A stretch of DNA of 64,000 nt from Sandaracinus amylolyticus (GTDB lineage: Bacteria > Myxococcota_A > Polyangia > Polyangiales > Sandaracinaceae): contig NZ_CP070225.1 of NCBI RefSeq assembly GCF_021631985.1, positions 7,440,001-7,504,000 of the forward strand. Direction: 5' to 3'. Positions 1 to 16,646 of the stretch are shown here, one piece after another. The notes under the pieces were generated by a model. It had not been told where the DNA came from, did no database searches, and saw only the letters and a program-made list of their open reading frames with translations. The position numbers and the translations under genes were made by a program. Every line of letters begins with the position of its first letter. The first letter of the stretch is position 1.

Positions 1-1
1 G

Positions 2-121
2 CTGCGCTGTCGGACCTGCGTGCACGACGCGACGTGCCGCGGGATGCACGTGAACTACGTGCGCGCCCACGGCTACGGCCTGATGCGCCCGATCGTCGAG
101 ACCAGCATCGCGGCCGAATGA
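2..121 (+). CDS. C-terminal end of a radical SAM protein (left-truncated)
   Basis: Only the last 39 codons lie in the window; the gene starts to the left. The fragment has a C-x2-C-x5-C-x-G motif (CRTCVHDATCRG) followed by an aromatic/Gly-rich tail. The same signature closes several complete radical SAM proteins in this window, at 1248, 10301, 14081 and 15016, where it probably binds an auxiliary Fe-S cluster. The CxxxCxxC core that would prove the family is outside the window, so the family is inferred from the tail. Its TGA overlaps the next ATG (ATGA), so the two are translationally coupled. Confidence 0.6.
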   Translation: MRCRTCVHDATCRGMHVNYVRAHGYGLMRPIVETSIAAE

Positions 122-1251
122 GCGCCGCCGAAGCCCACGCGCCGAGCACCGGGCTCGTGCTCCCGCCCGAGCACGAGGCGCCGCGCCGGCTGCTCCAGCT
201 GCGTCGGGCCGAAGCGTGGCGACTGCTCAAGGCCCACGCCGCGACCGGCGATCTCCGCATCGCGCGCCCGCTCGCCGACCTCGCGCGCAGCGCGCCCGAC
301 GACGCGGTGGACGTGCTCGCCGATCCGATCGCGAGCGTGCTCGCACGATGCGGCCGTCACGACGACGCCGCCGACGCGTGGGCGCTCGAGCTCGCGCGTC
401 GCGGTGCGCTGCCCGGGCGCCACGATCTGCACGGGAAGCACGTCGCGAATCTGGCACTGGGTGCCATCTTTTCCGGCGCGCGGATGACGCTCGCGTCGGG
501 CAAGATCGTGATCGACGGACGCACCGTCGCGCTCGGCTCGGTCGCGCCGGAGCAGTTCGTCGAGCTGCGCCCCGGCATCCGATTCGCGACCTACGACCCG
601 AACCCGCTCGCGCTGGTCGAGGCCCACCCCGACAAACGAGGCAACGCGCTCTCGCTCGGCGGTCGCGACGCGCGCGAGTGGATCGCGGCGCTGAACGAAG
701 CGCTCGCGATCGTCGAGCGGCACCTCCCGACGATCATCGACGAGATGCGTGCCCTCTCGATGGTGCTCGTGCCGGTCGGCTACGAGCCCGAGAAGCACCT
801 CTCCGCGTCGTACCGCGAGTACGTCGGCGCGTGTTACCTGACGCTGCACCCCGACGTGCGCACGATGGCCGAGGCGATCGTGCACGAGTTCCAGCACAAC
901 AAGGCGAACCTCGCCTCGTACCACGACGCGCTGCTCGAGAACGCGCTGGGCACGATGGTGCGCTCTCCGGTGCGCCCCGATCTCCGGCCGATCTGGGGCG
1001 TCCTGCTCGCGGTGCACGCGTTCGTGCCGGTCGCCGAGCTCTATCGGCGCATGCTCGCCGCGGGCGACGTTCGCATCCAATCGCGGCTCGCCGACGTGAT
1101 CGCGCGCAACGACGAAGGGCTGCGCACCGTGCGCGAGCACGCGGAGCCGACGCGCATCGGTGCCGCGCTGATCGAAGAGCTCGAGGCGCTGCACGCGACC
1201 CACCTCGCGCTCGACCTCGCGAAGCCCGCGGGTGTGTCGTGGGAAGCGTGA
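118..1251 (+). CDS. HEXXH motif-containing putative peptide modification protein
   Basis: This 377-residue cytosolic protein carries HEFQH at residues 256-260, preceded by a Leu/Glu/Ala-rich helix and followed by a Leu-rich helix. A SYREYVGACYLT-like stretch lies shortly before it. This layout matches the HEXXH putative peptide-modification family found beside radical SAM and other RiPP maturases; some members are reported as iron/2-oxoglutarate peptide hydroxylases. The ATG at 118 overlaps the previous stop. Its own TGA overlaps the GTG of the radical SAM-methyltransferase, so it sits in one transcript with two rSAM enzymes. That context supports peptide maturation rather than proteolysis. 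No precursor peptide is visible beside it; it may lie to the left of the window. Confidence 0.75.
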   Translation: MSAAEAHAPSTGLVLPPEHEAPRRLLQLRRAEAWRLLKAHAATGDLRIARPLADLARSAPDDAVDVLADPIASVLARCGRHDDAADAWALELARRGALPGRHDLHGKHVANLALGAIFSGARMTLASGKIVIDGRTVALGSVAPEQFVELRPGIRFATYDPNPLALVEAHPDKRGNALSLGGRDAREWIAALNEALAIVERHLPTIIDEMRALSMVLVPVGYEPEKHLSASYREYVGACYLTLHPDVRTMAEAIVHEFQHNKANLASYHDALLENALGTMVRSPVRPDLRPIWGVLLAVHAFVPVAELYRRMLAAGDVRIQSRLADVIARNDEGLRTVREHAEPTRIGAALIEELEALHATHLALDLAKPAGVSWEA

Positions 1252-3095
1252 TCGCGAGCGGCTGGCGAGGCCGCAAGGCGCTGGTGAAGGTCGGCTACGG
1301 GTGCAACGAGAACTGCACCTTCTGCCACACCGCCGAGGTGCGCCACATCGACGGCGCGAGCACCGAGGTCGTCGCGAAGATCCATCGCGCGAAGCAGCTC
1401 GGCCACGGCATGGTCGTGTTCTCCGGTGGCGAGCCGACGATCCGCGCCGAGCTGATGGAGTGGGCGTCGCTCACCGCGCGCCTCGGCATGGACGTGGGGC
1501 TCGTCACCAACGGGCTCGTGCTCGCCTATCCCGACAAGGTCGAGGCGCTGATCGAGCGACGCCTGCGCTACGTGTACATGTCGCTCCACGGCGTGGGCCG
1601 CATCCACGATCGACTGGTGCGCAGCGAGGCGTGGGAGGCCGCGTATCGCGCGGTGCAGAACCTCTCGGGGCGCGGCCTCGATCTCACGATCAACTGCGTC
1701 GTCACCCAGCAGAACGTCGAGCACCTGATCCCGCTCGTCGACGCGCTGCTGCCCTTCCCCGACCTGCGCCTCAAGTTCTCGATGGTGCAGCCGAAGGGTG
1801 GCGGGAAACGCCTCTTCGACGCGATCACGCCACGGGTGTCCGACGTCGCCGATCGTGCGGCGCGCGCGATCCGCCACGGCCAGGAGCAGGTCGCGAAGCG
1901 CAGCGCAGCAGGCCCGACGTTCGGGCACGACGGCATCCCGCACTGCCTGCTCCCCGGGCTCGAGCCGCTCTACGACGACCTCAAGACCCACCGCTTCGCC
2001 ACGATGTGCGACATCGGCGAGCCCGACTTCTTCCCGGTCGACGAAGCGCTCAACGTGCAGCCCGAGGACGTGTGCGGCGGGTGCCCGAAGCGCGGCCCCT
2101 GCCCCGGTCTCTTCCGCGGATACGCCGAGCAATTCGGCACGAGCGAGATCCGCGCGCCCGAGCCCGCGCCGCGCTCGAACTCGTTCACCTACACGTTCGA
2201 GGCGCAGATCGCGACCGACGCGGGCGAGGCCCACTGTCCGCTGCGCGACGGAGAGCACGGCATCATCCCGTGGGATCGCGGGCGCGAGCTCTTCGTGCGG
2301 AACCGCGCGGAGAGCGGCTATCGCATCGCGCGCTTTCGCAGCGACACCCGCGACTTCGCGGACGTCGAGATCGCGCGCACCAAACACGCGCTCGGACAGC
2401 TCTATCTCGACGTCTCGCGCAAGCCCGCGCCCGACGACTTCGCGCGTGATCTGCGCCCGCTGCGTCGCTCGACGTTGTGCGACGGATGCACCCACCGCGA
2501 GACCTGCACCGGGATGTTCGAGCCCGCGCTCGACGACGATCCGTTCACCCGCGACGACGCGCGGGTGCGCGACGTGCTGCGCGCGCTCGAGGGCGACGTG
2601 CTCGATCTCGGGTGCGGCGAGGGCCCCTACGAGGACGTGTGGGCACCGCGCGCCCTGTGCGGCCACGTGCGCTACGTCGGCGTCGATCCCCACGCCGATC
2701 TCGACGCGCTGCGCGCGCGCTGGCCGTGGGCGACGTTGGTGCGCGGCGAGGGCGAGACGTTCGTCGTCGATCGCACCTTCGATCACGCGCTGATCTTGCG
2801 GAGCTGGAACCACCTCGCCGATCCCACGGGCGTCGTCCGGCGGGTGGTCGACGCGCTGCGCGTCGGAGGGTCGCTGCTGGTCGTCGACAACGTCGCGTTC
2901 GGCCTGGCTCGTACCCGCGCCCAGACGAGCGTCGCGCACCGCGGTCCCGCGCGCTTCGAGCACTATCGCAACGACGACGCGGATCGCGCGGCGCGCACCA
3001 TCGAGAGCGCGACCGATTCGATCGCGCTGCGCGAGCGCCACGACGTCGGGCCTGGCACCGCGAACCAGTGGCTGCTGCGTTACGAGAAGCGATAG
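1248..3095 (+). CDS. Radical SAM enzyme fused to a class I SAM methyltransferase
   Basis: A 615-residue fusion. The N-terminal radical SAM core has CNENCTFC (Cys19, 23, 26) for the 4Fe-4S cluster and a SGGEPT motif for SAM binding. Two C-x2-C-x5-C-x-G motifs follow, CGGCPKRGPCPG near residue 276 and CDGCTHRETCTG near residue 411, suggesting a duplicated auxiliary-cluster domain. From about residue 430 to the end is a Rossmann methyltransferase with VLDLGCGEG near residue 451. The start chosen is GTG 1248, overlapping the upstream TGA (GTGA); GTG 1239 is an in-frame alternative. Coupling to the HEXXH gene suggests joint peptide maturation. The substrate and the methylated atom are unknown. Confidence 0.8.
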   Translation: MIASGWRGRKALVKVGYGCNENCTFCHTAEVRHIDGASTEVVAKIHRAKQLGHGMVVFSGGEPTIRAELMEWASLTARLGMDVGLVTNGLVLAYPDKVEALIERRLRYVYMSLHGVGRIHDRLVRSEAWEAAYRAVQNLSGRGLDLTINCVVTQQNVEHLIPLVDALLPFPDLRLKFSMVQPKGGGKRLFDAITPRVSDVADRAARAIRHGQEQVAKRSAAGPTFGHDGIPHCLLPGLEPLYDDLKTHRFATMCDIGEPDFFPVDEALNVQPEDVCGGCPKRGPCPGLFRGYAEQFGTSEIRAPEPAPRSNSFTYTFEAQIATDAGEAHCPLRDGEHGIIPWDRGRELFVRNRAESGYRIARFRSDTRDFADVEIARTKHALGQLYLDVSRKPAPDDFARDLRPLRRSTLCDGCTHRETCTGMFEPALDDDPFTRDDARVRDVLRALEGDVLDLGCGEGPYEDVWAPRALCGHVRYVGVDPHADLDALRARWPWATLVRGEGETFVVDRTFDHALILRSWNHLADPTGVVRRVVDALRVGGSLLVVDNVAFGLARTRAQTSVAHRGPARFEHYRNDDADRAARTIESATDSIALRERHDVGPGTANQWLLRYEKR

Positions 3096-3104
3096 AGCGC
3101 GCCG

Positions 3105-4070
3105 TCAGAAGACCACGCCCTCGACCGGCGGCGGCTTCCGGGGCAGCGGTGCCACGGGGATCTCGAAGCGCGCCATCTCCTTCAGGTTCTCCTCGATGGT
3201 CAGCGAGATCGCCGTCAGGGGCACGTCGGCGATGCGATTCTCGAAGGGGTCTTCGGTGTAGTGGGCGACGAGGTCGAGCGACAAGAAGAGGAAGTTGATC
3301 GCCAGCGCGAGCGGGATGTTCAGCCAGGTCAGCTCTTCGATGAACGCGAAGGGCACGAACGTTCCGTGGATGAAGACGAAGACGCGCGAGTAGAAGGTGT
3401 ATGGCCGCGGCAGCGGCGTGTTCTTGATGCGCTCGGCCATCCCCTGGTGGTTGTTGAGCTCGGTGAGCGTCTGGCTCATCTGGACGAAGCGGTAGTCGCT
3501 CAGCCACCCCCTGATGCTCGCGTCCTTGAGCTCCTGGCCCTGATGGAGGATCAGCTGGTTGGGCGGGTTCTTCGCCGCGAGGACCTCCGAATACTCCGTC
3601 GGGTCGAGGAAGTCCTTCATGTCCTCGTAGGTGTTCGGCTGCGGCAGGAGCGGCTCGCGCTGCCTGACGTAGCCGTTCGGCTCGCGGAGGAAGACGCGCA
3701 GGCCGTGCACGAAGGCCATGTGTCTCCGGAGCAGCCGCTGCTGCCACGCGCGCACCTCCTCGGGGCTCTCGGTCTCGTCGGGGACGACGAAGGTGAGCAC
3801 CTCACGGCCGAAGGCGCGGCTGTAGTTCACGAGGAGGCCCCAGATCTTTCGACCCTCCCACCAGCGGTCATAAGCCTGGTTGGCCTTGAAGCCGAGGTAG
3901 ATCGCGAGCGCCGTGCTCATCATCGCCACGCCGTTGAAGGGCAGCGAGATGTGCAGTCCGGCGTGATAATGCAAGACGTAGACGCCGACCGAGAGGATCG
4001 CGAAGTACGCGAGGCTCGCCCCGCTCTGATGCAGGACGTGCCGCAAGCGAACGCGATGCGAGACGATCAT
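3105..4070 (-). CDS. Bestrophin-like membrane channel protein
   Basis: A 321-residue integral membrane protein with hydrophobic segments near residues 18-35 and 40-60 and another pair around 230-270. The motif FKANQAYDRWWEGRKIW and the late EDPFENRIADVPL segment are hallmarks of the bestrophin/UPF0187 family, which forms pentameric anion or cation channels. The C-terminus is proline-rich. Start ATG 4070; a longer frame upstream runs antisense-like through the neighbouring gene and is not supported. It converges with the radical SAM-methyltransferase, 9 nt apart, and its codon use is a little less GC-skewed than the neighbours. A channel role is inferred from the family only. Confidence 0.8.
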   Translation of the reverse strand: MIVSHRVRLRHVLHQSGASLAYFAILSVGVYVLHYHAGLHISLPFNGVAMMSTALAIYLGFKANQAYDRWWEGRKIWGLLVNYSRAFGREVLTFVVPDETESPEEVRAWQQRLLRRHMAFVHGLRVFLREPNGYVRQREPLLPQPNTYEDMKDFLDPTEYSEVLAAKNPPNQLILHQGQELKDASIRGWLSDYRFVQMSQTLTELNNHQGMAERIKNTPLPRPYTFYSRVFVFIHGTFVPFAFIEELTWLNIPLALAINFLFLSLDLVAHYTEDPFENRIADVPLTAISLTIEENLKEMARFEIPVAPLPRKPPPVEGVVF

Positions 4071-4129
4071 CCCCCGGTTCCCTAGCCCCCACGACGCGCT
4101 CTCGCTCGCGGGAGGTCCGCCGGTTCGGC

Positions 4130-5221
4130 TCAGGGCGCGCCGAGAGTGCTCCAGAACGGCCAGAACGCACGGGGATTGCCGGCGCCGTGGCGCCCGTCGT
4201 CGGCGGTGATCGGACACCAGACGACGGGATAGGCGGTGGGGCAGCCGGTGTACGAGACACAGTTCCAATCGGCCGGCGCATCGGCGGTGACGTAGGGCTC
4301 GGTCTCCGTCCCCACGCAACCGTTCGCCTCGAGGATCGCGTCGCGCGCGGCCCGCGATCCGCTGTCGAACCCGGTGCGATCGTCGACGTTCTCGATGGGG
4401 TTCGCGCCGTCGTTCACGCCCGCGGTGAGGAACGCGGCGACCGGCACGCCGGAGCACGGCGGACGCTCGGATCGGAGCCCGCCCGCCTGTGTTCCGATGG
4501 CGCGGAGCACGCCACCCCGCGCACAAGCCAGCATGTACGACTCCCATGCTCCGCTGCTGAAACCGCTCGCGAAGACCTGCCCTCGATCGAAGCAATAGCG
4601 TGCGTCGAGCTCCGCCATCACCGCGTCGAAGTAGGGCAGATCGGGAGTGTCCGCCGAGCCGTCCTGGAAGCATGCACCGGCTCCGTCGGGGTACACGTAG
4701 CTGAGCCCCACTTGGACGGCGTAGTCCTGATCATCCGCTAGTGGATTGCTGCCGCCACCACTGCCGCTCAGCCCGTTGCTGGCGCCGCAGCCTCCGCCCG
4801 AGATCACGAGCGAGTACTGCCGCGAAGGATCGTAGTTGCGCGGTAGGCGCACGAAGTAGTTGCGGTGCTCGAAGTCGTACCCGCCCTGGGTGCCGTAGTC
4901 CTCGCCGCCTGCGAGGAAGCGCGCCGCGACGCCGGTCACCGTCAGCTCGTGCAGCGTCCAGCGATCGCTGGAGTCGTCGGCTGCGAGCGCGCCGCATCCT
5001 GCGCTCGGGCCCGTGGGGCCGCGCGGCGTCGGCGCGCTCGCGTCGGGGCCCTCGTCGACCGTGGCGTCGGGCGACTCGACGCCGGCGTCGCCGCCGGCTC
5101 GCGCGTCGGCGGGCACACCGCCGTCGGTGCGAGCGTCGCCGGGCGGATCGCCTCGGAGATCGCCGAAGCACGCGCTCGTCCACAACCCCAGCGCCAGCAC
5201 CACGAGCCGAAGGCGTCGCAT
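4130..5221 (-). CDS. Lipoprotein esterase/depolymerase-like alpha/beta hydrolase
   Basis: A 363-residue exported protein with a lipobox ending at Cys18 (TSAC), then a long Asp/Gly/Ala/Pro linker to about residue 85. The catalytic part resembles the polyhydroxybutyrate depolymerase / feruloyl esterase (LpqC) group. It has FVRLPRNYDPSR, an oxyanion region with ISGGGCG, the nucleophile elbow GFSSG, and a late His in DDGRHG. ATG 5221 is chosen over an upstream start because it gives a proper signal peptide. It is probably anchored in a membrane and acts on ester bonds of polymers or plant material; the substrate is not readable from sequence. Confidence 0.75.
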   Translation of the reverse strand: MRRLRLVVLALGLWTSACFGDLRGDPPGDARTDGGVPADARAGGDAGVESPDATVDEGPDASAPTPRGPTGPSAGCGALAADDSSDRWTLHELTVTGVAARFLAGGEDYGTQGGYDFEHRNYFVRLPRNYDPSRQYSLVISGGGCGASNGLSGSGGGSNPLADDQDYAVQVGLSYVYPDGAGACFQDGSADTPDLPYFDAVMAELDARYCFDRGQVFASGFSSGAWESYMLACARGGVLRAIGTQAGGLRSERPPCSGVPVAAFLTAGVNDGANPIENVDDRTGFDSGSRAARDAILEANGCVGTETEPYVTADAPADWNCVSYTGCPTAYPVVWCPITADDGRHGAGNPRAFWPFWSTLGAP

Positions 5222-5299
5222 TCGTCGTCCTCCGATGCCGTGAGTGGTCGAGAGGTCGACGGCTGATTGCACAATCTGCTCGCCCGTCCGCGTCCCGGC

Positions 5300-6247
5300 C
5301 TACGAGAAGCGATGGAGCGCAGCGTGCGGCGCGCTCACGATCGCGCGATCGTCGAGCGACAGGACACCATCGATCACCGCGACGCGCTCCGCGCGCTCGA
5401 CGAGCACGAGGAGCCGCGCGACCGCCTCGAGCGCGAGGTCGTCGAGCCGCGCGTCGGGATGACGATCACGCGCGGTGGGCCACACCTCGGCGACGCGCAA
5501 CACGTCGCGATCGATCGTGCCTCGCAGCGAGAGCTGCACGTCTTCGAAGAGCACGAGCCGATGCGCTCCGAGCGCGTCGTCGATCGCGCGCACGAACGTC
5601 TCGTGTCGGCACCCCGGCGGACACCGCGACACCGGGCGCGCCCCGCGCCCCGCCAGGAACTGAGCGTGTCGCTCCGCGATGTGCGACGCGACCGCATCGG
5701 CGTAGGCGCTCGAGAGCGCACACGACAGCGAGCACGGGATCCACGAGACGTAGTGGAACACCGCGAGATCGAGCACGTTCAGCCGCGCTCGACCGACGCC
5801 GCCCCGCGCGATCGCGTCGAGGTTGTCGCGCGGCGGAGGGACCGCGAGGTACGCCTCGACACAGCACCGCGGATATCCGAGCAATCGCCCGAGCTCGTGA
5901 TCGTGCTCGGGCGCCGCCTCGACGCGCACCGCCTCCTCGACCCGTCGTGCGTCGCGCCCGACGAAGAGCACGCGCCCGCGCGTCGACGCCGTCTCGACCC
6001 GGTGCACCGCGTCGCGCACCACGAGCCCCAGCGCCTCGAAGCGCGCGCGCGTCGCGGCGACGTCGGCATCGCGCACCACCTGGCGCAGCAGCGGCTTGAT
6101 CCCCGCGCAGAGCGCGACCTCGTCGGCCTCACCGCTGCCCAGCGCGTACACGATCGGCCGCGCTCGCACCGCGCTCCGCGCGCGCTCGGGCGCGTCGGGC
6201 AGCGCGCGCACCAGCTCCACGACGCTCTCGACGCGCTCCGTCACCAC
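5300..6247 (-). CDS. DUF483-like protein with a GYPxCC motif
   Basis: A 315-residue cytosolic protein. Its central LGYPRCCVEAYL motif is typical of DUF483-type proteins. Further Cys residues follow (IPCSLSC and CPPGC), which could hold a metal or Fe-S cluster. The start is GTG 6247, only 52 nt from the divergent GTG of the spore-photoproduct-lyase-like radical SAM gene at 6300, so the pair may share a control region. It sits between two groups of radical SAM maturases, and a role as a partner in radical chemistry is possible but unproven. The family function is not known. Confidence 0.65.
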   Translation of the reverse strand: MVTERVESVVELVRALPDAPERARSAVRARPIVYALGSGEADEVALCAGIKPLLRQVVRDADVAATRARFEALGLVVRDAVHRVETASTRGRVLFVGRDARRVEEAVRVEAAPEHDHELGRLLGYPRCCVEAYLAVPPPRDNLDAIARGGVGRARLNVLDLAVFHYVSWIPCSLSCALSSAYADAVASHIAERHAQFLAGRGARPVSRCPPGCRHETFVRAIDDALGAHRLVLFEDVQLSLRGTIDRDVLRVAEVWPTARDRHPDARLDDLALEAVARLLVLVERAERVAVIDGVLSLDDRAIVSAPHAALHRFS

Positions 6248-6299
6248 GACGCATCATCGCACTCCCGATGGGTCGCGTGATCACGATCGGAGCGCGCGC

Positions 6300-7496
6300 G
6301 TGAGCGACCTGCGCGCCCAGCTCGTCGCACTGCTCGCGCCGCACTCGCTCGGCGACGAGGTCGTGCGCGGCGCGCGCTTCGTGAACGCGTCCACCGAGCT
6401 CGGGCTGCGCCTCACGTTCGAGCTCGCGACCCCGAACGCAGCACCGCGCATCGTCCACGTCGAGGTCGCGCCCCGCGACGAAGAGGCGCGCTACGCCGCG
6501 CGCACCGAGCGCTTCGTGCTGGGCTACCGCACCGGCACCGGCAGCGGCGGCGACCACGTCGCGCCGCACGAGGGCAAGGCGCTCTGCGACGCGATCGCGA
6601 GCGTGATCGCGCGCAACGAGCGCGAGGTGATCGCGTCGATCGCCCGCGATGCGGCAGCCGCGCGCGAGAGCCGCGACGGCTCGACGAGAGTGCGCGAGGT
6701 GCACGTCTCGTCGCTGCTCGAGTCCGCCGAGTGGCATGGCACGCGGTACTACACCGTGAGCCCCTACGTCGGCTGTCTGATCGGCTGCCGCTTCTGCTAC
6801 GCGCAGACCCGCGTCGGCATGGTGCGGCGGCTCGAGGGCCTCCCCGAGGTGCCGTGGGGCTCGTACGTCGACGCGCGGGTGAACGCGCCCGAGGTGCTCG
6901 CGCGCGAGCTCGCGTCGCTGCCTCCCGGACCGATCAAGTTCTGCCCGGTGGTGAGCGATCCCTATCACGCGATCGAAGCGCGTCTCTCGCTCACCCGCCG
7001 CTGCCTCGACGCGATCCACGACGCGACGCGCGTCTTCCCGACGATGGTGCTCACGCGCTCGCGCCTGATCGAGCGCGACGCCGCGCGCCTCGCCGCCCTC
7101 CCCGTCGCCTACGCGGGCGTCTCGTTCCCGACGATCGACGACGAAGTGCGCCGCCACTTCGAGCCCCGCGGTGCCTCGATCGACGATCGCCTCGCCACGC
7201 TCGCGACCCTGCGCGCCCACGGCGTCCGCACGTTCGCGGTGGTGCAGCCGATGCTGCCCGGCTCGATCGACGCGCTCGCCGACGCGATCGCCGCGCACGC
7301 GACCTCGGCGAGCCTCGACGTCCTCACGTCGCTCGAAGGGGCCGAGCGCGACTTCGCGGATCCCCGCTACACGGTCGCGCGCGACCCGCGATGGCAGGTC
7401 GAGCGCGCCGAAGCGGTCTCCGAGGCCCTGACCGCGCGCGGTGTGGTCCTGTGGCGCGGCGAGCTCCCGCCCGAGCTCTGCGTCGATCCGCTGTAG
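6300..7496 (+). CDS. Spore photoproduct lyase-like radical SAM protein
   Basis: A 398-residue protein. About 140 residues of unknown fold precede a radical SAM core with CLIGCRFC (Cys159, 163, 166) inside SPYVGC...YAQTR, the pattern of the SplB-like rSAM group. Later strands contain KFCPVVSDPYHAIE and VLTRS, also typical of that group. It lacks the C-terminal C-x2-C-x5-C motif of the other rSAM proteins here. GTG 6300 is chosen because a GGAG sits about 8 nt upstream; no in-frame ATG precedes it. It is divergent from the DUF483-like gene. A DNA photoproduct role is not assured, since many SplB-like proteins have other, unknown substrates. Confidence 0.75.
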   Translation: MSDLRAQLVALLAPHSLGDEVVRGARFVNASTELGLRLTFELATPNAAPRIVHVEVAPRDEEARYAARTERFVLGYRTGTGSGGDHVAPHEGKALCDAIASVIARNEREVIASIARDAAAARESRDGSTRVREVHVSSLLESAEWHGTRYYTVSPYVGCLIGCRFCYAQTRVGMVRRLEGLPEVPWGSYVDARVNAPEVLARELASLPPGPIKFCPVVSDPYHAIEARLSLTRRCLDAIHDATRVFPTMVLTRSRLIERDAARLAALPVAYAGVSFPTIDDEVRRHFEPRGASIDDRLATLATLRAHGVRTFAVVQPMLPGSIDALADAIAAHATSASLDVLTSLEGAERDFADPRYTVARDPRWQVERAEAVSEALTARGVVLWRGELPPELCVDPL

Positions 7497-7572
7497 ACGA
7501 AGACCCCGCGAAGCGGCGTCGAGGGGCTCCCCGAGCCGGGTCCGCATCCGACCCTCCGGCAAGAAAGGAATG

Positions 7573-7601
7573 CACGGGAGCGCGCTCGGCGCGTTCCCGT
7601 G
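7573..7601 (+). terminator. Hairpin between the SplB-like gene and the HxS operon
   Basis: CACGGGAGCGCG (7573-7584) pairs with CGCGTTCCCGTG (7590-7601) through a 5-nt loop: 12 pairs with one G-U. No T-run follows, as is usual in this GC-rich genome. It lies 76 nt after the stop of the gene at 6300 and 47 nt before the ATG of the HxS operon, so it probably ends the first transcript, leaving room for a promoter at 7602-7640. Confidence 0.5.
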
Positions 7602-7648
7602 TAGTCGACCAGCCTGCGTTTCGGGTACCGTCCAAGGTCGGAGGTCTC

Positions 7649-8173
7649 ATGGCCGCGCTCGTAGGGATGCCTTCGGATCAGATCGACGCCGACGTGTCGG
7701 CGCACGCAGTGACGGTGACCGTCGACGAGTCCCTCTACCCGCTCGATGCGGTGTACGGCGCGGCCTACACGTTCCTCGATCGCTGCTACGTGCTGCTCGA
7801 TCGCGCGGCGTCGAATCGCGTGCGCATCACGCTCACGCCGAAGGGCACGACGCCCGCCGAGAGCGAGCTGCGCAATTGGGTCGGCGAGCTGCAGAACGAG
7901 CTCCTCAGCTGCGCGTGGCGCGCCCAGATCGTCCGCGACAACCGCGCGGTGATCGAGGCGGTGACGCTGCAGGCCGTGACCGGCGCGATGGGCCCGCCGA
8001 CGCTCGACGATCTCAAGGACTTCGACTTCTCCGAGGAGCCCTTCGAGGACCCGCTCGGCATCGGGCTCTCGTGGGAGGAGAAGTACAAGAAGAAGAAGGA
8101 CGAGCCCGCCGCGCCCGCGCTCGGTTCTTCGGAGGCTGCAGCGAAGCCGAGCGACGAGGGGAGCGCGACGTGA
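7649..8173 (+). CDS. hxsD: HxsD-like protein of a His-Xaa-Ser peptide modification system
   Basis: 174 residues. The first 110 match the HxsD pattern: a short strand, then SLYPLDAVYGAAYTFLDRC, a basic/hydrophobic strand pair, a helix with ELQNELL, and an Arg-rich helix with IVRDNRAVIEAVTLQA. The last 60 residues are an acidic then Lys-rich tail (KYKKKKDEP) of low complexity. HxsD proteins accompany the maturases HxsB/HxsC and His-Xaa-Ser precursors, and may act as a small partner or recognition protein. ATG 7649 has a clear GGAGG at 7640-7644. It is the first gene of the operon and its TGA overlaps the GTG of the next gene. Confidence 0.75.
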   Translation: MAALVGMPSDQIDADVSAHAVTVTVDESLYPLDAVYGAAYTFLDRCYVLLDRAASNRVRITLTPKGTTPAESELRNWVGELQNELLSCAWRAQIVRDNRAVIEAVTLQAVTGAMGPPTLDDLKDFDFSEEPFEDPLGIGLSWEEKYKKKKDEPAAPALGSSEAAAKPSDEGSAT

Positions 8174-8397
8174 GCGAGCTGCGCCTCCACCGCGAGCTCT
8201 ACCTCGCGAGCGCGATCGATCAGGCGATCGGGCTCTACGCCGCGCACGCCGAGATCACGCGGGGCGACGAAGCCGATCACGTGGTGCTGCGCATCGCGAG
8301 CGCGCGCCCCGGTCGCGCCGCGCGCGTCGCGCGCGAGCTCGGCAACTACGCGCTCGGTCTGACCATCCAGGCTCGGAAGACGGGAGCCGCGCAGTGA
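8170..8397 (+). CDS. Short second HxsD-like protein
   Basis: A 75-residue protein between the HxsD-like and HxsB-like genes, coupled to both by GTGA overlaps. The sequence (LHRELYLASAIDQAI, then VVLRIAS and ARELGNYAL) repeats the strand-helix-strand-helix layout of the preceding HxsD-like protein: ELYL aligns with SLYP and ELGNYAL with ELQNELL. It lacks the C-terminal helices and tail. I infer a diverged, truncated HxsD paralogue, perhaps a heterodimer partner or leader-binding subunit. No catalytic residues are evident. Its position and codon use leave little doubt that it is expressed. Confidence 0.65.
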   Translation: MSELRLHRELYLASAIDQAIGLYAAHAEITRGDEADHVVLRIASARPGRAARVARELGNYALGLTIQARKTGAAQ

Positions 8398-9986
8398 CGG
8401 ACACCATCGACTCGCAGCTCCCGCCCGGCGCGTTCCCGCTGCACGGCCTCCGCCCCTCGGCCACGTTCCCCGCGTTCTTCCGCTATCGCGCGCTCCCGAA
8501 GCAGCGCGTGCTGCTGACGAACCTCGAGGGCAATTTCCTCGTGCTCGCGGACGCCGAATTCCGCGCGTTCGTCGAAGGCAACGTCGCGCCCGAGAGCGAG
8601 CTCCACGCGCGCCTGCGCGACGGCAATTTCCTCCGCGCGCACTACGACACCAAGCGCGCCGCGGACGCCCTGCGACGTCGCAAGTCGTTCGTCGGCTACG
8701 GGCCGAACCTCCACATGCTGGTGGTCACGCTCCGCTGCAACGAGACCTGCGTCTACTGCCACGCGTCGCGCGCCGCGATGGACGCGGTGCACACCGACAT
8801 GACCCCGGAGATCGCCGAGAAGTGCGTCGACATCGCGCTCTCGTCGACGAGCCCGGGCATCACGATCGAGTTCCAGGGCGGCGAGCCGCTCGTGAACTTC
8901 CCGGTCGTGAAGCACGTCATCGAGTACGCGCGGAAGAAGAACGAGAGCATCGGCAAGGCGCTCGAGTTCACGATGGTCAGCAATCTCTCGTTGATGGACG
9001 AGGAGAAGCTCGCCTTCCTGCTCGAGAACCGCGTCCAGATCTGCACCAGCATCGACGGCCCCCAGGGCCTGCACGACAAGCAGCGCAAGCTCCCCGCGCT
9101 CAAGCTCGCCGATGGAACCAAGACCGGCGGCTCGTCGTGGGAAGCGTCGGTGAAGTGGATCCGGCGCATCAACGAGGAGTACGCGAAGCTCGGTCTCGAC
9201 ACGACGCTCTACCGCGTCGAGGCGCTGCTCACGACGACGCGCGAGACGCTGCCGCTCTGGAAGGACGTGGTCGATCAGTACGTCGACCTCGGCTGTCGCG
9301 CGCTCTTCCTGCGCCCGCTCGATCCCTTCGGGTTCGCCGAGAAGACCGGCCCGCGCCTCGAGTACCCGCGCGCCGAGTACCTCGACTACTACCGCAAGTG
9401 CGTCGACTACATGATCGAGCTGAACCTGAAGGGCGTTCAGGTGCTCGAGCGCTACGCGGCGATCTTCCTGACGAAGATCCTCAGCGGCGAGGACCCGAAC
9501 TTCCTCGACATCCGCAGCCCGTCGGGCGCGGGGATCGGCGCGCTCGCCTACAACTACGACGGCTCGATCTTCACGTGCGACGAAGGTCGCATGCTGCACG
9601 AGACGGGCGACGACACGTTCCTGCTCGGCCACGTGAACGACGCGACCTACCGCGGCCTCGTCGGCCACGAGACGGTGCGCGCGGTGGTGCTCGCCGGGAA
9701 CCTCGACGCCCGCCCCGACTGCGTGAATTGCGCCTACCAGCCCTACTGCGGCGTCGCCCCCAGCCACAGCCACAAGACCCAGGGGACGATCTTCGGGCGG
9801 ATGCGCGAGAGCAGCGTCTGCGCGGTCCACAAGGGAATCCAGGACTATCTGTTCGAGAAGATCGCCGATGCCGACCCCGGCACGATGGAGGTCTTCCGCC
9901 GCTGGACCACGAACCGACCGAGGGCCCATTTCATCCAGGGGACGTCTAGTAGTACACTCGCCGCGGACGCTTCACGGACGCCGTGA
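8394..9986 (+). CDS. hxsB: HxsB-type radical SAM/SPASM maturase
   Basis: A 530-residue radical SAM enzyme. Residues 20-105 resemble the HxsB N-terminal domain (FFRYRALPKQRVLLTNLEGN, then a HARLRDGNFL helix). The core has CNETCVYC (Cys115, 119, 122), FQGGEP and a typical barrel. The C-terminus is Cys-rich and SPASM-like: TCDEGR, CVNCAYQPYCG, then a late SSVCAVH. It would use SAM and electrons from auxiliary clusters to modify the His-Gly-Ser precursor encoded 36 nt downstream. The start is GTG 8394, overlapping the previous stop. The last 15 codons contain a run of rare codons and a hairpin, described separately. Confidence is high for rSAM/SPASM and good for the HxsB assignment. Confidence 0.85.
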   Translation: MTDTIDSQLPPGAFPLHGLRPSATFPAFFRYRALPKQRVLLTNLEGNFLVLADAEFRAFVEGNVAPESELHARLRDGNFLRAHYDTKRAADALRRRKSFVGYGPNLHMLVVTLRCNETCVYCHASRAAMDAVHTDMTPEIAEKCVDIALSSTSPGITIEFQGGEPLVNFPVVKHVIEYARKKNESIGKALEFTMVSNLSLMDEEKLAFLLENRVQICTSIDGPQGLHDKQRKLPALKLADGTKTGGSSWEASVKWIRRINEEYAKLGLDTTLYRVEALLTTTRETLPLWKDVVDQYVDLGCRALFLRPLDPFGFAEKTGPRLEYPRAEYLDYYRKCVDYMIELNLKGVQVLERYAAIFLTKILSGEDPNFLDIRSPSGAGIGALAYNYDGSIFTCDEGRMLHETGDDTFLLGHVNDATYRGLVGHETVRAVVLAGNLDARPDCVNCAYQPYCGVAPSHSHKTQGTIFGRMRESSVCAVHKGIQDYLFEKIADADPGTMEVFRRWTTNRPRAHFIQGTSSSTLAADASRTP

Positions 9987-9987
9987 G
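9944..9987 (+). promoter_or_regulatory. AT-rich island and hairpin before the HxS precursor gene
   Basis: Bases 9944-9957 (TCTAGTAGTACACT) form an AT-rich patch inside the end of hxsB, giving four consecutive codons (TCT AGT AGT ACA) that are rare here. Just downstream, TCACGG-ACG-CCGTGA (9972-9986) forms a 6-bp hairpin covering the hxsB stop codon. Both lie 40-80 nt upstream of the precursor ATG. The patch could be an internal promoter, and the hairpin an mRNA end or processing site that makes precursor mRNA more abundant than maturase mRNA. This is inference. Confidence 0.35.
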
Positions 9988-10022
9988 CGGGTGCTTTCCC
10001 TGGGAGCGGTAGGAGGCGGGGC

Positions 10023-10301
10023 ATGGCCGACGACGACGACGTTCTTCCGAGCTTCCGGCGCAACGCGGGCGGTCTGATGGATCCGACCGAACGCGCGATC
10101 GCCGATCGTGCGCTGGAAGAGGCCGATCTCGCCAAACCCAACACGCGAGACGACATCCTGCTGGCGCAGCACTGCTCGCACGGCTCGCATGGCTCGCACG
10201 GGTCCCACGGCTCGCACGGCTCGCACGGGTCCCACGGCTCGCACGGGTCGCACGGCTCGCACGGCTCGCACGGCTCGCACGGGTCCCACGGGAGCTGGTG
10301 A
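10023..10301 (+). CDS. His-Gly-Ser repeat RiPP precursor (HxsA-like)
   Basis: A 92-residue protein in two parts. Residues 1-49 are a polar, acidic leader (ADDDD near the start, a helix with ERAIADRALEEADL) without a signal peptide. Residues 50-92 are H-C-S, then thirteen exact H-G-S triplets, then a single Trp. His-Xaa-Ser triplet arrays define the HxsA precursors of radical SAM systems, and the flanking genes are HxsD-like, HxsB-like and a second rSAM. AGGAGG sits just upstream of ATG 10023, suggesting strong translation. The TGA overlaps the next ATG by one base. The repeat could be cross-linked, bind metal, or both. The only Cys (51) lies at the leader/core boundary. Confidence 0.85.
   Translation: MADDDDVLPSFRRNAGGLMDPTERAIADRALEEADLAKPNTRDDILLAQHCSHGSHGSHGSHGSHGSHGSHGSHGSHGSHGSHGSHGSHGSW
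10170..10298 (+). repeat. Tandem 9-nt coding repeat for His-Gly-Ser
   Basis: Fourteen tandem 9-nt units: one His-Cys-Ser and thirteen His-Gly-Ser, followed by a Trp codon. Ser codons alternate TCG/TCC with a final AGC, Gly codons GGC/GGG, and His is CAC except one CAT. The patterned synonymous changes point to expansion by duplication of blocks of several units while the amino acid triplet stayed invariant. Confidence 0.9.
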
Positions 10302-11368
10302 TGACGAGGGCGGTGCTCAGCTCTCCGTCGAGCAGAGCGGAGGCCGAGCACTCCTCGATCGACGAGCGCATCGCGCGCAAGGACGAGCGCGTGCACGTGC
10401 TCACCGGCGCGGTGTGCAACAACAACTGCGTCTTCTGCATGGAAGAGGATCGTGACGCTCGCTACGTCACGAACAGCCAGACCGACGACGCGCTCGTGCG
10501 GTTCATCCTCGAGCAGAAGAAGGGCGCCGAGGAGATCTGCTTCACGTCGGGCGAGCCCACGACGAACCCTCGACTGCCGCACTGGGTGCGGTGGGCGAAG
10601 GAAGCGGGGATCCGCCGCGTCAGCGTGATGACGAACGGGCGCTCGCTCTCGTACGAGAAGTACGCGCGCATGCTGATCTCGGCGGGGATGAACCGCTTCT
10701 ACGTCAGCATCCACGGCCACACGCAGAAGCTGCACGACGGACTGACGCGCACGCCCGAGAGCTTCGACCAGACGGTCGCGGGGCTCGACGTGATCACGAA
10801 GTACAAGCGGTATGGAGTCGAGCTCCACACCAGCACCGTGATCACGAAGCGCAATCTCCCGCACATGGGAGAGATCTATCGATTCCTGCGCGCGCACGGC
10901 GTCGATCAGGTCGTGTTCAACGTGATGCAGGCCAATGGCCGCGCGAACACGTACTTCGAGCACATCTTCCCGACCTACACCGAGATCGCCGAGACCGCGC
11001 GGGTCTTCCTCGAAGAGCAGGCGAAGACCGAGCCGCGGGTGATGGCGTTCCTGGTCGACATCCCGCTGTGCACGACGACGAAGCTGCCGGACTTCAACCG
11101 CGGCTACGTCGAGAGCTACGTGCACTACGAGCCCGCGGCGAACGCCGAGAAGCTGGTGCCCGCAGAGGCGCTGCTCGGACGAAAAGAGGCGCTCGCCGAT
11201 CAGAGCGAGACGCGCGAGCTCGTGGCGATCCGCCGCGCCGACCTCGACGACTCCGAGCGCCAGAAGCGCGCGGAGTGCGCGACCTGCAAGCACGAGAAGA
11301 GCTGCGAAGGCGTCTGGGGCAACTACCTCAAGCGCTACGGCTGGGACGAATTCGTTCCGGTTGTGTGA
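10301..11368 (+). CDS. Second radical SAM maturase of the HxS operon
   Basis: A 355-residue radical SAM protein with CNNNCVFC (Cys39, 43, 46), TSGEPT and a C-terminal CATCKHEKSCEGVWG (C-x2-C-x5-C-x-G) auxiliary motif ending in GWDEFVPVV. It occupies the place where canonical systems encode HxsC. Its core wording (SIHGHTQKLHDGLTR, SVMTNGR) is instead closest to the other CxxC-tailed rSAM proteins in this window. ATG 10301 is chosen because GGAG lies 6 nt upstream; GTG 10298 is an in-frame alternative. It overlaps the precursor stop by one base. Likely role: a second modification of the His-Gly-Ser core. The reaction is unknown. Confidence 0.85.
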   Translation: MTRAVLSSPSSRAEAEHSSIDERIARKDERVHVLTGAVCNNNCVFCMEEDRDARYVTNSQTDDALVRFILEQKKGAEEICFTSGEPTTNPRLPHWVRWAKEAGIRRVSVMTNGRSLSYEKYARMLISAGMNRFYVSIHGHTQKLHDGLTRTPESFDQTVAGLDVITKYKRYGVELHTSTVITKRNLPHMGEIYRFLRAHGVDQVVFNVMQANGRANTYFEHIFPTYTEIAETARVFLEEQAKTEPRVMAFLVDIPLCTTTKLPDFNRGYVESYVHYEPAANAEKLVPAEALLGRKEALADQSETRELVAIRRADLDDSERQKRAECATCKHEKSCEGVWGNYLKRYGWDEFVPVV

Positions 11369-11408
11369 TCGGCAGCGCCTCGGCGAGCGAATCGAACCAC
11401 GGAGATCG

Positions 11409-11464
11409 CAGAGGGCCGCAGAGAGATTGTTCTCGCGTGCTTCCGACTCCTCTGCGGCCCTCTG
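11409..11464. terminator. Long inverted repeat between convergent genes
   Basis: CAGAGGGCCGCAGAG (11409-11423) pairs perfectly, over 15 bp, with CTCTGCGGCCCTCTG (11450-11464); the loop is 26 nt. A degenerate extra copy of the right arm follows at 11465-11477. It lies 40 nt after the HxS operon stop and 45 nt before the stop of the convergent GH43 gene, so it can terminate both. No T-run is present. Confidence 0.55.
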
Positions 11465-11509
11465 TGGCCCTCTGCGGTTGAATCCCGATCGTCAAATCAG
11501 GATCCGAGT

Positions 11510-13036
11510 CTAGTCGCGCCCCGGCCATGCGCGCGGCGACTGACCCGGGGTTCCATCTCCGATCCTCGGCCAGTCGCCTTCCCACGTGATCGGATCGAGG
11601 AGCCCGAAGCGCCCGCGCGATCCGTCGTGGCCGCCGCCCGCGGTCGCGTTCCATGCGTGATAGAAGAACCAGTCCTGGTCGCCGACGCGCAGCACCGTGC
11701 CGTGGCCGGGGCCGACCCAGCGCGCGTCGTTCGTGAGGATCGGCGCGCCGTGCTTCTCGTAGGGGCCGGTCACGCTGCGCGACCGCGCGACGCCGGTGCG
11801 ATATCGACCGTCGTAGACGTTGCCGCTGTAGAACAAGTAATAGAAATCACCGCGGCGCACCGTCCACGACGCCTCGACGACTCCGCCTTCCCACGTTCCC
11901 GGGTCGTTCCGCAGCACCTCGACTGCCACGCTCCCCGGCGTGAACGAGAGTCCGTCAGCCGCCAATTCACGCACGAAGATCGGAGTCGGGCGGCCGTGGG
12001 CATTGCCGTCGATCTTGTAGAAGAGATAGTGACGCCCGTCGTCGTCGCGGAAGTAATTGCCGTCGATCACTCCGTCGGGATGCTCGACCAGCGGCGCGTC
12101 GGTGACGGTGTACGGACCGAGCGGATCGTCCGCCCACGCCGCGCCGATCGAGAGCACGTTCGCGCCGTTCACCGACGTGAAGTACGCGACGTAGCGGTCG
12201 CCCACGCGATGCAGCTCGGGCGCCCAGTTGCGGTGTCCGTTCGCCGCCCAGGGTGGCGCGCCGCTCGGGATCACCGCCGCGCCGGTGTCGCTCCAGCGCA
12301 CCAGATCGCGCGAGCGACGAATGGGAAAACGGCCTCCGGTGCAGACCATGTAATACGCGCTCTCGTCCGCGAGCACGCCGGGATCGGGGCAGTCGAAGGG
12401 CACCACCGGGTTCGTGTAGTGCGGCGCGGGCGGCGGGAGCTCGGCCGAGAGCGGCACTGCGAGCGCGTGGGTCTCGTCGATCGGCGACTCGGTGCCTCCC
12501 GGCGGCGTCCACAGCACGCGCAGCTGCGCCGCGAGATCGATCTCGAAGTAGTCGACGCGCAGCCTCACCGGCGTGCCCGCGACGAGCTCGATCGTCCCCT
12601 CGTGTCGCTCGACGAGATGACCGCGCCAGTCGTCGATCACGAGCGCATCGTCGATCCACACCCGCACGCCGTCGTCGTTCTCGGTGGCGATGGTGTACGT
12701 GCCGGTCGCGGGCGGCGTGAGCAGCGCGGTGAAGCGCGCCGAGACGAAGTCCGAGGGCGCGCCCTCGCCGAGCGGCGCGTCGCCCCACACGAAGTCGATC
12801 GCCGGCACGACACCGACGTGCGCGGGAGCGTGGTAGTCGTCGAAGCGCGCGAGCAGCAGCCCGCGAGGCGGTCCCGCATCGGGTGTGCCGGAGTCCGGCG
12901 TGCCCGCGTCGATCGCGGCATCGACCGCTGGCGCGGCGGCGTCGATCCTGCGGTCGTCGTCGCCCAGCTGCCCACTGCACGCCGTCGATCCCAGCGCCAG
13001 CACGGCCGCGCACCACCCGCGAGCTGTCCCAGTCAT
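11510..13036 (-). CDS. Lipoprotein with PA14 domain and GH43-like five-bladed propeller
   Basis: 508 residues. A lipobox ends at Cys20 (GSTAC), then a short Asp/Ala/Pro linker. A PA14-like domain (about 55-185) contains TGTYTIATENDDGVRVWIDD. From about residue 205 is a GH43-type propeller. Candidate catalytic residues are the Asp in DCPDPGVL, the Asp in DGVIDGNYF and the Glu in WEGGVVEASW. The family includes arabinanases, arabinofuranosidases and xylosidases. PA14 domains often bind sugars, so a surface-anchored plant-polysaccharide hydrolase is likely. ATG 13036. The exact substrate is not readable. Confidence 0.8.
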   Translation of the reverse strand: MTGTARGWCAAVLALGSTACSGQLGDDDRRIDAAAPAVDAAIDAGTPDSGTPDAGPPRGLLLARFDDYHAPAHVGVVPAIDFVWGDAPLGEGAPSDFVSARFTALLTPPATGTYTIATENDDGVRVWIDDALVIDDWRGHLVERHEGTIELVAGTPVRLRVDYFEIDLAAQLRVLWTPPGGTESPIDETHALAVPLSAELPPPAPHYTNPVVPFDCPDPGVLADESAYYMVCTGGRFPIRRSRDLVRWSDTGAAVIPSGAPPWAANGHRNWAPELHRVGDRYVAYFTSVNGANVLSIGAAWADDPLGPYTVTDAPLVEHPDGVIDGNYFRDDDGRHYLFYKIDGNAHGRPTPIFVRELAADGLSFTPGSVAVEVLRNDPGTWEGGVVEASWTVRRGDFYYLFYSGNVYDGRYRTGVARSRSVTGPYEKHGAPILTNDARWVGPGHGTVLRVGDQDWFFYHAWNATAGGGHDGSRGRFGLLDPITWEGDWPRIGDGTPGQSPRAWPGRD

Positions 13037-13201
13037 TCGCGCGCGATCATCGCACGTCGCATGCCGCGCTCACTGCGGTCTCGTGCCCGGAACGTGCTGC
13101 ATCGAGGCCGCATCTCCGTGACGATCGCGCCCGGATCCATATCCTGACACAAGGCTGACATTGCGCCGATCCACTCTCGGTTCGTCACGAAGGAGATGCA
13201 C

Positions 13202-13642
13202 ATGGATCCGATCACGTTGCGCGGCGTCTGCACCGTCGTCCTCCACGCCGACGATCACGCTGCGGCGAAGCGCTGGTACAGCGAGCTGCTCGGCGTCGAG
13301 CCCTACTTCGATCGCCCGGGCTACGCCGAGTTCCGCATCGGCGACTACCAGCACGAGCTCGGCCTGCTCGACGCGCGCTTCCGTCACGCGCTGGGCGGCA
13401 CCGAGGGCACCGCGACCGGCCCGACCGGTGTCGTGACGTACTGGTACGTCGACGACGTGCCGAAGATGATCGAGCGGCTCGTGTCGATGGGCGCGAAGCT
13501 GCATCACCCGCCGCGCGACTTCGGCGCGGGGTTCATCGGCGCGTCGGTGATCGACCCCTTCGGGAACATCCTCGGGGTGATGTTCAACCCGCACTACCTC
13601 GAGGTGCTGGAGGGGAAGAAGCGCGCCGCCGCGAGCGCATGA
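13202..13642 (+). CDS. Glyoxalase/VOC family protein
   Basis: A 146-residue protein of the vicinal oxygen chelate fold. The first beta-alpha-beta unit has VVLHADDHAAAKRWYSELLG. The second runs from a WYVDDVPKMIERLVSMGAKL helix to IDPFGNILGVMFNPHY. VOC proteins bind a metal and act as lyases, dioxygenases or resistance proteins; the substrate is unknown. ATG 13202 is preferred over the in-frame ATG 13196, because AGGAG at 13191-13195 is then correctly spaced. No operon partner is visible. Confidence 0.8.
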   Translation: MDPITLRGVCTVVLHADDHAAAKRWYSELLGVEPYFDRPGYAEFRIGDYQHELGLLDARFRHALGGTEGTATGPTGVVTYWYVDDVPKMIERLVSMGAKLHHPPRDFGAGFIGASVIDPFGNILGVMFNPHYLEVLEGKKRAAASA

Positions 13643-13725
13643 GCACGGGGATCCGAGGGGCGATTTTTTTCGCGCGCACGCGCGCGCGCGCGTCAGTCGG
13701 GAAGGGTCCCGAACGACTGACGGGC

Positions 13726-14061
13726 ATGACCAGCAAGACCGAGATTTCGCCCCAGATCCCTGCGTTTCGCGCCCTCGCCCGCCACTGGGTCGACCGTCGC
13801 CTGTGTGGGGACATCCAGGGGGCGCGGCGCGCCCTCGCCGCGTTCGTCGCGCGGCTCGGGCGCTCGTTCACCGCGCCCGAGCGCGAGGCGTTCTTCGCCT
13901 CGATCGAGCACTGCCTGGGCGAGCACGTCGTGCGGCTCGAGCAGCGCAAGACACGCATCGACGCGCTCGCGCAGGAGCTCGCCGCCGCGAACCACACGTT
14001 CGACGAGCGCCCGACGATCATCGTCGCGCGGCGCGCCGATCGCTTCAGCTTCTCGGCGTGA
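13726..14061 (+). CDS. Small hypothetical protein
   Basis: 111 residues, not recognised. It is predicted helical and charged, with Arg/Ala-rich helices, a central CLGEHVVRLEQRK segment that may form a short coiled coil, and a basic C-terminus. Codon third positions are almost all G or C, as in true genes here. ATG 13726 is chosen. A longer frame from 13639 would run through a CG-repeat stretch (13677-13694) and overlap the glyoxalase stop. It converges with the radical SAM gene ending at 14081, 19 nt away. No function is proposed. Confidence 0.5.
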   Translation: MTSKTEISPQIPAFRALARHWVDRRLCGDIQGARRALAAFVARLGRSFTAPEREAFFASIEHCLGEHVVRLEQRKTRIDALAQELAAANHTFDERPTIIVARRADRFSFSA

Positions 14062-14080
14062 TCGCCTCGCTGGAGTGCTT

Positions 14081-16074: not shown

Positions 16075-16100
16075 ACCGCGGGACGGCCGCGCCGCTCCGT

Positions 16101-16646
16101 TCAGATCGAGGCCGTGTGATCGGGCTCGAAGTCGACGTCGAAGCACGCGCCCGCGTGATGGGCACGACGCTCGGCGAACGTCGCGAGCGCCGGCAGCTCG
16201 ACGCCGGTCTCGACACGCCGCTCGAGCACGGCGCCGAGCGCGCGCGCACCGCGCTCGCAGGTCGCCGCGTGCTCGGGCGCGATGCGGCCGTGCACGAAGA
16301 GGCTGAAGTGCTCGCCCTCGGACAGCGCACCGCTCGCAACCGACGCGTCGCGACGCAGCACGTCGATCTGGAAGCGCTGGCCCTCGCCTTCGAGCACGAA
16401 GGGCAGCGCGCCGTAGTACGGCCCGAAGGCGCGCACCACGGTGAAGCCGCCGGCGAGCTCGAGATCGCGTGCGATCGCGCCCGGCGGCATGAGTTGATCC
16501 GCGTGCGGTCCTGCGACGTAGCCCGAAGGCGTGCGTCGCTCGGGCACTGCAGCTCGGTCTTCGGCGTGCGCGGTCTCTTCCGGCACGATCGACAGCACGA
16601 CGGGAGTGATCGCGACCGCGGAGAGAAAACGGCGCCGCTGAAGCAT
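16101..16646 (-). CDS. Twin-arginine-signal protein heading an rSAM operon
   Basis: A 181-residue protein of unknown family. The N-terminus (LQRRRFLSA, a hydrophobic stretch, then AHA|ED near residue 28) is a Tat-type signal peptide, implying export of a folded or cofactor-bearing protein. The mature part has only two Cys (ATCERG, GACFDV) and several His late in the chain. The gene is 27 nt upstream of two coupled radical SAM genes, so it may be their modified substrate, exported by Tat after modification. ATG 16646 is chosen; GTG 16688 is possible but would bury the signal. Homology was not recognised. Confidence 0.6.
   Translation of the reverse strand: MLQRRRFLSAVAITPVVLSIVPEETAHAEDRAAVPERRTPSGYVAGPHADQLMPPGAIARDLELAGGFTVVRAFGPYYGALPFVLEGEGQRFQIDVLRRDASVASGALSEGEHFSLFVHGRIAPEHAATCERGARALGAVLERRVETGVELPALATFAERRAHHAGACFDVDFEPDHTASI

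Follow-up and report, generated by a model that had tools for sequence, protein, structure and literature searches.

A radical SAM-methyltransferase fusion protein associated with HxsA4-type His-Xaa-Ser peptide loci of Sandaracinus amylolyticus and related myxobacteria

The fusion gene and its HXS locus

The window analysed is a stretch of 64,000 nucleotides from Sandaracinus amylolyticus (contig NZ_CP070225.1, positions 7,440,001 to 7,504,000). It carries at 1248-3095, on the forward strand, a gene for a protein of 615 amino acids, P0001, in which a radical S-adenosylmethionine (SAM) enzyme is fused to a class I methyltransferase. The gene belongs to an HxsA4-type His-Xaa-Ser (HXS) system, a pathway for ribosomally synthesized and post-translationally modified peptides (RiPPs). 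Locus labels (L###) and genome labels (G###) refer to the loci and genomes of the analysis, and G000:C1 is the source contig; positions without a label are those of the window.

The frame of P0001 begins with GTG, overlaps the stop codon of the upstream HExxH gene by 4 bases and has no internal stop. Pfam placed a radical SAM domain (PF04055) at residues 14-165 (E 1e-21, 78.2 bits against a cut-off of 29.5) and a Methyltransf_11 domain (PF08241) at residues 452-544 (E 3.8e-7, 31.1 bits against 21.2). A CxxxCxxC motif inside the PF04055 domain marks the protein as a member of the radical SAM superfamily, and the PF08241 score together with the structural matches identifies the Rossmann domain and SAM motif of a class I SAM methyltransferase. 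The Pfam scan of P0001 gave no match to a B12-binding domain, which places it outside the class B (B12-dependent) radical SAM methyltransferases, and none to PF13186 (SPASM).

Matches to P0001 at E <= 1e-40 were present in 59 of the 183 genomes of the order, about 40 of them spanning the whole length. The nearest fall in the family of Sandaracinus, and a 94% identical protein is encoded in a single-contig, complete genome of the same genus. The GC content at third codon positions is even along the frame and the ratio of nonsynonymous to synonymous substitution (dN/dS) is 0.16-0.21 in the radical SAM, middle and methyltransferase parts; all three are under purifying selection. An earlier note on this DNA had described one polypeptide with a radical SAM core, two C-x2-C-x5-C-x-G motifs about 135 residues apart and a class I methyltransferase, and the frame, the Pfam matches and the motif positions (exactly 135 residues apart) agree with it in every detail.

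The HXS genes lie downstream on the forward strand. They encode HxsD (7649-8173; TIGR03976, 49.5 bits against a cut-off of 50, E 4e-13), the HxsD-related protein HxsDr (8170-8397; NF038315, 64.1 bits, cut-off 41), the radical SAM maturase HxsB (8394-9986; TIGR03978, 542 bits, cut-off 370), the precursor HxsA4 (10023-10301; NF038313, 115.5 bits, cut-off 55) and the radical SAM protein HxsC4 (10298-11368; NF038332, 630.6 bits, cut-off 500). The precursor has 92 residues with 13 His-Gly-Ser repeats and a C-terminal Trp. All five genes are within 9 kb of the fusion gene and four of them exceed the curated cut-offs.

The association extends across the order. HxsB was found in 58 of the 59 genomes with a P0001 match and in 9 of the 124 without (Fisher p 8.6e-37, counted over related genomes that are not independent). 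Among 49 fusion loci, not all of them independent, HxsD is within reach in 19, HxsB in 16, HxsA4 in 12 and the HExxH gene in 8. At L083, L086 and L101 the fusion gene continues straight into hxsD-hxsDr-hxsB-hxsA4-hxsC4, and at L088 and L101 its stop shares 4 bases with the hxsD start; in several genomes the fusion is translationally coupled to hxsD-hxsDr-hxsB. Since other HXS loci of the order have no fusion (G123, G145, G146 and G163, for example), the fusion seems to be a marker of the HxsA4 subtype.

Outside the window, two HxsA4-like precursors (L102:5165-5518 and L106:13755-14189) have an N-terminal twin-arginine-like stretch (RRDFVETSASLLLLG; RRDLLSSSWKVALLA), which suggests export by the twin-arginine translocation (Tat) pathway after modification. 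HxsA4-like repeats are also found, along with HxsB, at L126 and L136. These loci and L130 and L139, from Elusimicrobia and other metagenome-assembled genomes (MAGs), are clusters of several radical SAM genes that include relatives of the radical SAM gene upstream of the fusion operon's HExxH gene and of the radical SAM gene at 14081-15016.

Cysteine sites and predicted structure

An AlphaFold2 model of P0001, built on 32 aligned sequences, reached a predicted local distance difference test score (pLDDT) of 93.2 and a predicted template modelling score (pTM) of 0.90. The radical SAM half (residues 1-302; 1248-2153) comprises the barrel and one putative C-terminal auxiliary-cluster site. Residues 4-342 are closest to SkfB (6efn; Z 20.9, 3.0 A over 244 residues), followed by SuiB, anSME and other peptide-modifying enzymes. 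The methyltransferase core (residues 449-548; 2592-2891) belongs to a fold that extends to residue 615, and the C-terminal half of the model matches class I methyltransferases at Z of about 17-19, including the crocagin RiPP methyltransferase CgnL (7pd7). A phmmer search of this half against the PDB gave only weak matches, again to class I methyltransferases. Between the two lies a middle domain (residues 303-436; 2154-2555), which gave a pLDDT of 88.7 when predicted alone. It showed no clear relative by Foldseek (best E 0.69) or VIA (best Z 2.6 over 77 residues, to a glutamine synthetase); no relationship is drawn for it, and the absence of a match does not establish a new fold.

Eleven cysteines are invariant in 20 full-length homologues of 53-93% identity. 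The first three, C19, C23 and C26, form the CxxxCxxC motif (C19-N-E-N-C-T-F-C26; 1302-1325) predicted to hold the radical SAM [4Fe-4S] cluster. The others fall into two groups of four. Auxiliary motif 1, C276-x2-C-x5-C-x-G287 (2073-2108), is preceded by C233 (1944-1946), and motif 2, C411-x2-C-x5-C-x-G422 (2478-2513), by C330 (2235-2237). C233 and C330 are additional to the cysteines of the earlier note. Each motif is thus joined by an invariant cysteine further upstream, a probable fourth ligand, and is part of a four-Cys site. In most paralogues of this genome a P-x-C at the position of C233 is followed by a single C-terminal C-x2-C-x5-C-x-G, and by this comparison site 1 is the ordinary arrangement of the HxsC-like family. 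With the invariant C233/C276/C279/C285 and a SkfB-like fold, but no PF13186 match, it may be an auxiliary-cluster domain of the SPASM/twitch kind.

The second site follows the methyltransferase. C330, C411, C414 and C420 are invariant in 44 fused proteins, and in stand-alone methyltransferases at every position that the alignment covers; across the middle domains of 29 fusions, down to 22% identity, these four cysteines alone are invariant. The site has been lost in the lineages L163, L164, L170-L172 and L178, which keep the methyltransferase, and also at L177, where the radical SAM half still looks active. Its retention in free methyltransferases and its loss at L177 beside an active-looking radical half make it unlikely to be required for the radical reaction. 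On these alignments the second site belongs to the methyltransferase half; it is not another cluster of the radical enzyme. The 'duplicated auxiliary motif' of the earlier note did not hold up on this point, and two auxiliary clusters in one radical SAM domain were rejected as an arrangement. Structure prediction, which that note had proposed as the way to count the clusters, returned a confident fold with a SkfB-like and a class I methyltransferase half; the alignments left a second cluster of the radical half unsupported.

Separated halves and the radical SAM-rich neighbourhood

Separate-gene versions of both halves, which the earlier note had suggested looking for, were found. Free-standing methyltransferase halves of about 300 residues occur in several Polyangiales genomes in the order hxsD-hxsDr-methyltransferase-radical SAM, and the genomes that have them contain no close radical SAM half (best match 30-34%). 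A free-standing radical SAM half of 298 residues is present at L109, flanked by two other conserved radical SAM genes, while at L045, L047 and L057 this half is joined to the radical SAM protein that is its neighbour elsewhere. The methyltransferase half is joined to a different radical SAM enzyme in two proteins of about 800 amino acids (L166:9632-12067 and L167:9532-11934). In three further fusions (L168:8763-10505, L176:9512-11380 and L181) it stands behind a pseudo-radical SAM half, in which CxxxCxxC is lost and the barrel and auxiliary Cys motif are retained. In a tree of 71 methyltransferase halves the fused state changes 9 times, at least 6 of these changes being forced by well-supported branches, and free-standing forms are nested among fused ones (L060/L061, L044). 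The natural split point lies near residue 302, at window position ~2150 and not 2500. Borders of neighbouring genes at several loci were set with a simple gene caller based on codon usage; at least one radical SAM frame, near 7400751, escaped it.

As the halves are separated, re-partnered and repeatedly joined and parted, they are modular and neither requires the other in cis; the same pattern makes an obligate two-step reaction unlikely. Two further observations concern the fusions themselves. The long N-terminal part of the radical SAM enzyme at L166 and L167 resembles B12-binding enzymes by eye. A fusion 29% identical to P0001 is encoded at L111:9995-11413 in a MAG labelled Nanoarchaeota, the label being taken as given, with a run of N masking the methyltransferase part.

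Directly upstream, the fusion gene is preceded by a gene for an aKG-HExxH-type peptide beta-hydroxylase (118-1251, forward; TIGR04267, 84.9 bits, cut-off 40), which is in the same operon, and by the 3' end (window 1-121, forward) of a gene for a radical SAM protein of 608 amino acids (G000:C1:7438295-7440121, L012:13295-15121). The latter has an active radical SAM half and a C-terminal half without CxxxCxxC but with a four-Cys site of its own. This extra site parallels the extra four-Cys domain of the fusion, and the gene is conserved beside the fusion in many genomes.

The operon is part of a 69-kb stretch (G000:C1:7387000-7456100; L009-L012 and window 1-16100) that holds 25 of the 57 PF04055 matches of the genome in 0.6% of its length (binomial tail 8e-40) and includes tandem and half-dead radical SAM genes. 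One gene (L010:11602-13407, G000:C1:7401602-7403407) encodes a 601-residue tandem of two complete radical SAM modules, and each module has its CxxxCxxC and a single C-x2-C-x5-C-x-G. The gene is conserved in other myxobacteria (L117, L118, L123, L125 and L127), where identity is about 50%. Three genes match the WelO5 halogenase/oxygenase family (PF22814; L011:3523-5169 and L011:8265-9071), a fourth gene, at G000:C1:7408893-7410200, looks similar by eye, and a carbamoyltransferase gene is present at L011:9174-10865. In the window, two HxsC-like radical SAM proteins encoded on the reverse strand (14081-15016 and 15016-16074) are conserved near some fusion homologues.

Several other genes adjoin these. 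A radical SAM gene directly ahead of hxsD (6096-7496, forward) resembles the PA0069/Rv2578c-type and mobile-pair radical SAM proteins, far under their cut-offs. A DUF483 gene (5300-6247, reverse) stands beside the HXS cluster, whose 69-kb surroundings also encode a radical SAM protein of 1080 amino acids (L010:5485-8727) with a weakly DUF483-like region. Next to the radical SAM gene at 15016-16074 is the gene of a possible Tat-signal protein (16101-16688, reverse; LQRRRFLSAVAI), and a Cys-rich secreted protein is encoded at 16116-19157 (forward). Genes resembling these two lie upstream of hxsD-hxsDr-methyltransferase at L042, L043 and L055, and their products may be alternative substrates.

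Function of the fusion and its place among known systems

P0001 is probably a two-module tailoring enzyme of the HxsA4-type pathway whose modules act independently on the same peptide. Module 1 (residues 1-302) would be a peptide-modifying radical SAM enzyme of the HxsC/SkfB type, with a SAM-cleaving [4Fe-4S] cluster on C19/C23/C26 and one auxiliary site on C233/C276/C279/C285, a cluster content predicted from the conserved ligands. Module 2 (residues 303-615) is a class I SAM methyltransferase behind its own four-Cys domain of ~130 residues (C330, C411, C414 and C420), which most likely holds one Fe-S cluster or Zn and may have a structural or peptide-recognition role outside the radical chemistry. 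Co-occurrence and operon structure point to HxsA4, the (His-Gly-Ser)n peptide, as the likely substrate, or else to a different precursor from this cluster. It would be modified in the cytoplasm alongside HxsB, HxsC4, HxsD and the HExxH hydroxylase. The radical SAM half would abstract a peptide hydrogen and produce a carbon-centred modification, and the methyltransferase half would methylate a heteroatom, most plausibly a His nitrogen or a Ser or hydroxyl oxygen. Given the repeated separation of the halves, fusion would ensure co-delivery and be dispensable for catalysis.

Several points weigh against this interpretation. Genes on the opposite strand lie between the fusion operon and the hxsD operon in the window, and the three-gene operon with the fusion may act on a different precursor encoded in the 69-kb cluster. 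The fusion or methyltransferase gene of many Polyangiaceae genomes is far from HxsB and HxsA4 and stands beside its own hxsD/hxsDr copy and another radical SAM gene, so that its substrate there is perhaps not HxsA4 and a second substrate is possible. A description of an HXS product was not found in the open-access literature searched, and methylation of a heteroatom is a guess from the fold and general knowledge.

Among the alternatives, it is unlikely that each half has a substrate of its own within a large cluster and that the fusion serves co-expression only. The 69-kb stretch with its many radical SAM and other tailoring genes, and the recombination of the halves with different partners, are in line with such a division; but the radical SAM half, the methyltransferase half and the upstream-type radical SAM protein are interlinked in several arrangements, which argues for a shared substrate. 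The earlier note had proposed 'two-step radical then polar chemistry on one substrate'. Worked out as a model, this would have both halves act one after the other at a single residue, the radical step making a group that the methyltransferase caps, and would give the radical part two auxiliary clusters. What stands of this proposal is that the fusion is real, occurs in about 40 genomes with both halves under purifying selection, and has both activities tied to one pathway by fusion, conserved adjacency and co-occurrence. Obligate coupling is weakened, however: the second Cys site accompanies the methyltransferase half, many genomes keep that half without a close radical SAM half, it persists beside a dead one at L168, L176 and L181, and the radical SAM half occurs without it at L109 and, joined to another radical SAM protein, at L045, L047 and L057. 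A coupled scheme is possible in the fused form, though not demanded by the evidence, and the full sequential model is judged quite improbable.

Still less credible is that the middle domain descends from a second radical SAM module of which all but the C-terminal part has been lost, a history that would make its Cys motif a true duplicate. Tandem radical SAM and radical SAM-pseudo-radical SAM genes do occur in the same cluster, and in a profile comparison of the two Cys sites a 24-column Cys hairpin aligned with a probability of 86, against 1.5 for the reversed control. The likeness is limited to this hairpin, the global alignment having a probability of 3%, and the middle-domain signatures RSNSF, TRDF, GQ-Y-D-S-K and DDF-DL have no visible counterpart in the radical SAM half; motif 2 as a plain duplicate of motif 1 was rejected on the same ground. 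That two ordinary genes were run together near 2500 by a frameshift or an assembly join, an idea to which the separate-gene versions might lend colour, can be dismissed in view of the full-length homologues, the 94% identical protein of another complete genome, purifying selection, even third-position GC and the natural split at ~2150.

The HXS system is known but uncharacterised. HXS systems were predicted bioinformatically by Haft and Basu, as cited in PMC9062424; the open-access mentions there give predicted roles for HxsB and HxsC. The locus shares with the HxsA4/HxsC4 subtype (NF038313, NF038332, TIGR03978, TIGR03976, NF038315) the five genes that co-occur with the fusion across the order, HxsD with a score just under its cut-off. 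It differs in the fusion itself: a scan of NCBIfam turned up no model for a radical SAM-methyltransferase fusion, and P0001 scores far below the cut-offs of HxsC4 (82.9 bits against 500) and HxsC (52.1 bits against 267.9). The architecture was likewise not found described in the open-access literature on HXS products, radical SAM-methyltransferase fusions and myxobacterial radical SAM clusters, and a keyword search of the RiPP methyltransferase review PMC11285071 showed no passage on the fusion of class I methyltransferases with radical SAM enzymes.

Other systems share single features with P0001. SkfB and other sactipeptide maturases (6efn) have the barrel and a short Cys-containing C-terminal extension, and are the best structural match of the radical SAM half, but they are without a methyltransferase and P0001 is not in their families by sequence. 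CgnL shares the class I fold with the methyltransferase half and has no radical SAM fusion. To our knowledge, CgnL-type RiPP methyltransferases also have no four-Cys N-terminal domain. The class A-C radical SAM methyltransferases (B12-dependent and HemN-like types among them), reviewed in PMC11285071, likewise unite radical SAM chemistry and methyl transfer in one protein; in P0001 methyl transfer would instead come from a separate, polar class I domain. The HemN-like radical SAM enzyme and separate SAM methyltransferase of yatakemycin-type cyclopropane formation, cited in PMC9062424, combine radical and polar steps on one substrate, but as two proteins, with another radical SAM family and a non-peptide substrate.

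A more far-reaching and rather doubtful idea is that the 69-kb stretch forms one assembly line, in which ~15 HxsC-like radical SAM proteins, the fusion, the HExxH hydroxylase and several WelO5-like enzymes would act on one (His-Gly-Ser)n peptide, while a new metal-binding domain in the methyltransferase half would present the repeats to the methyltransferase. If true, the product would be among the most heavily radical-modified RiPPs. For the HXS family, an additional tailoring enzyme that is almost always present in one subtype leads one to expect a His-Gly-Ser repeat peptide with both methyl and radical-derived modifications, and the natural single-half variants offer a handle for dissecting the steps of the pathway. 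Such a class I methyltransferase, which brings a four-Cys domain with it and is swapped freely among radical partners, would be an unusual RiPP module.

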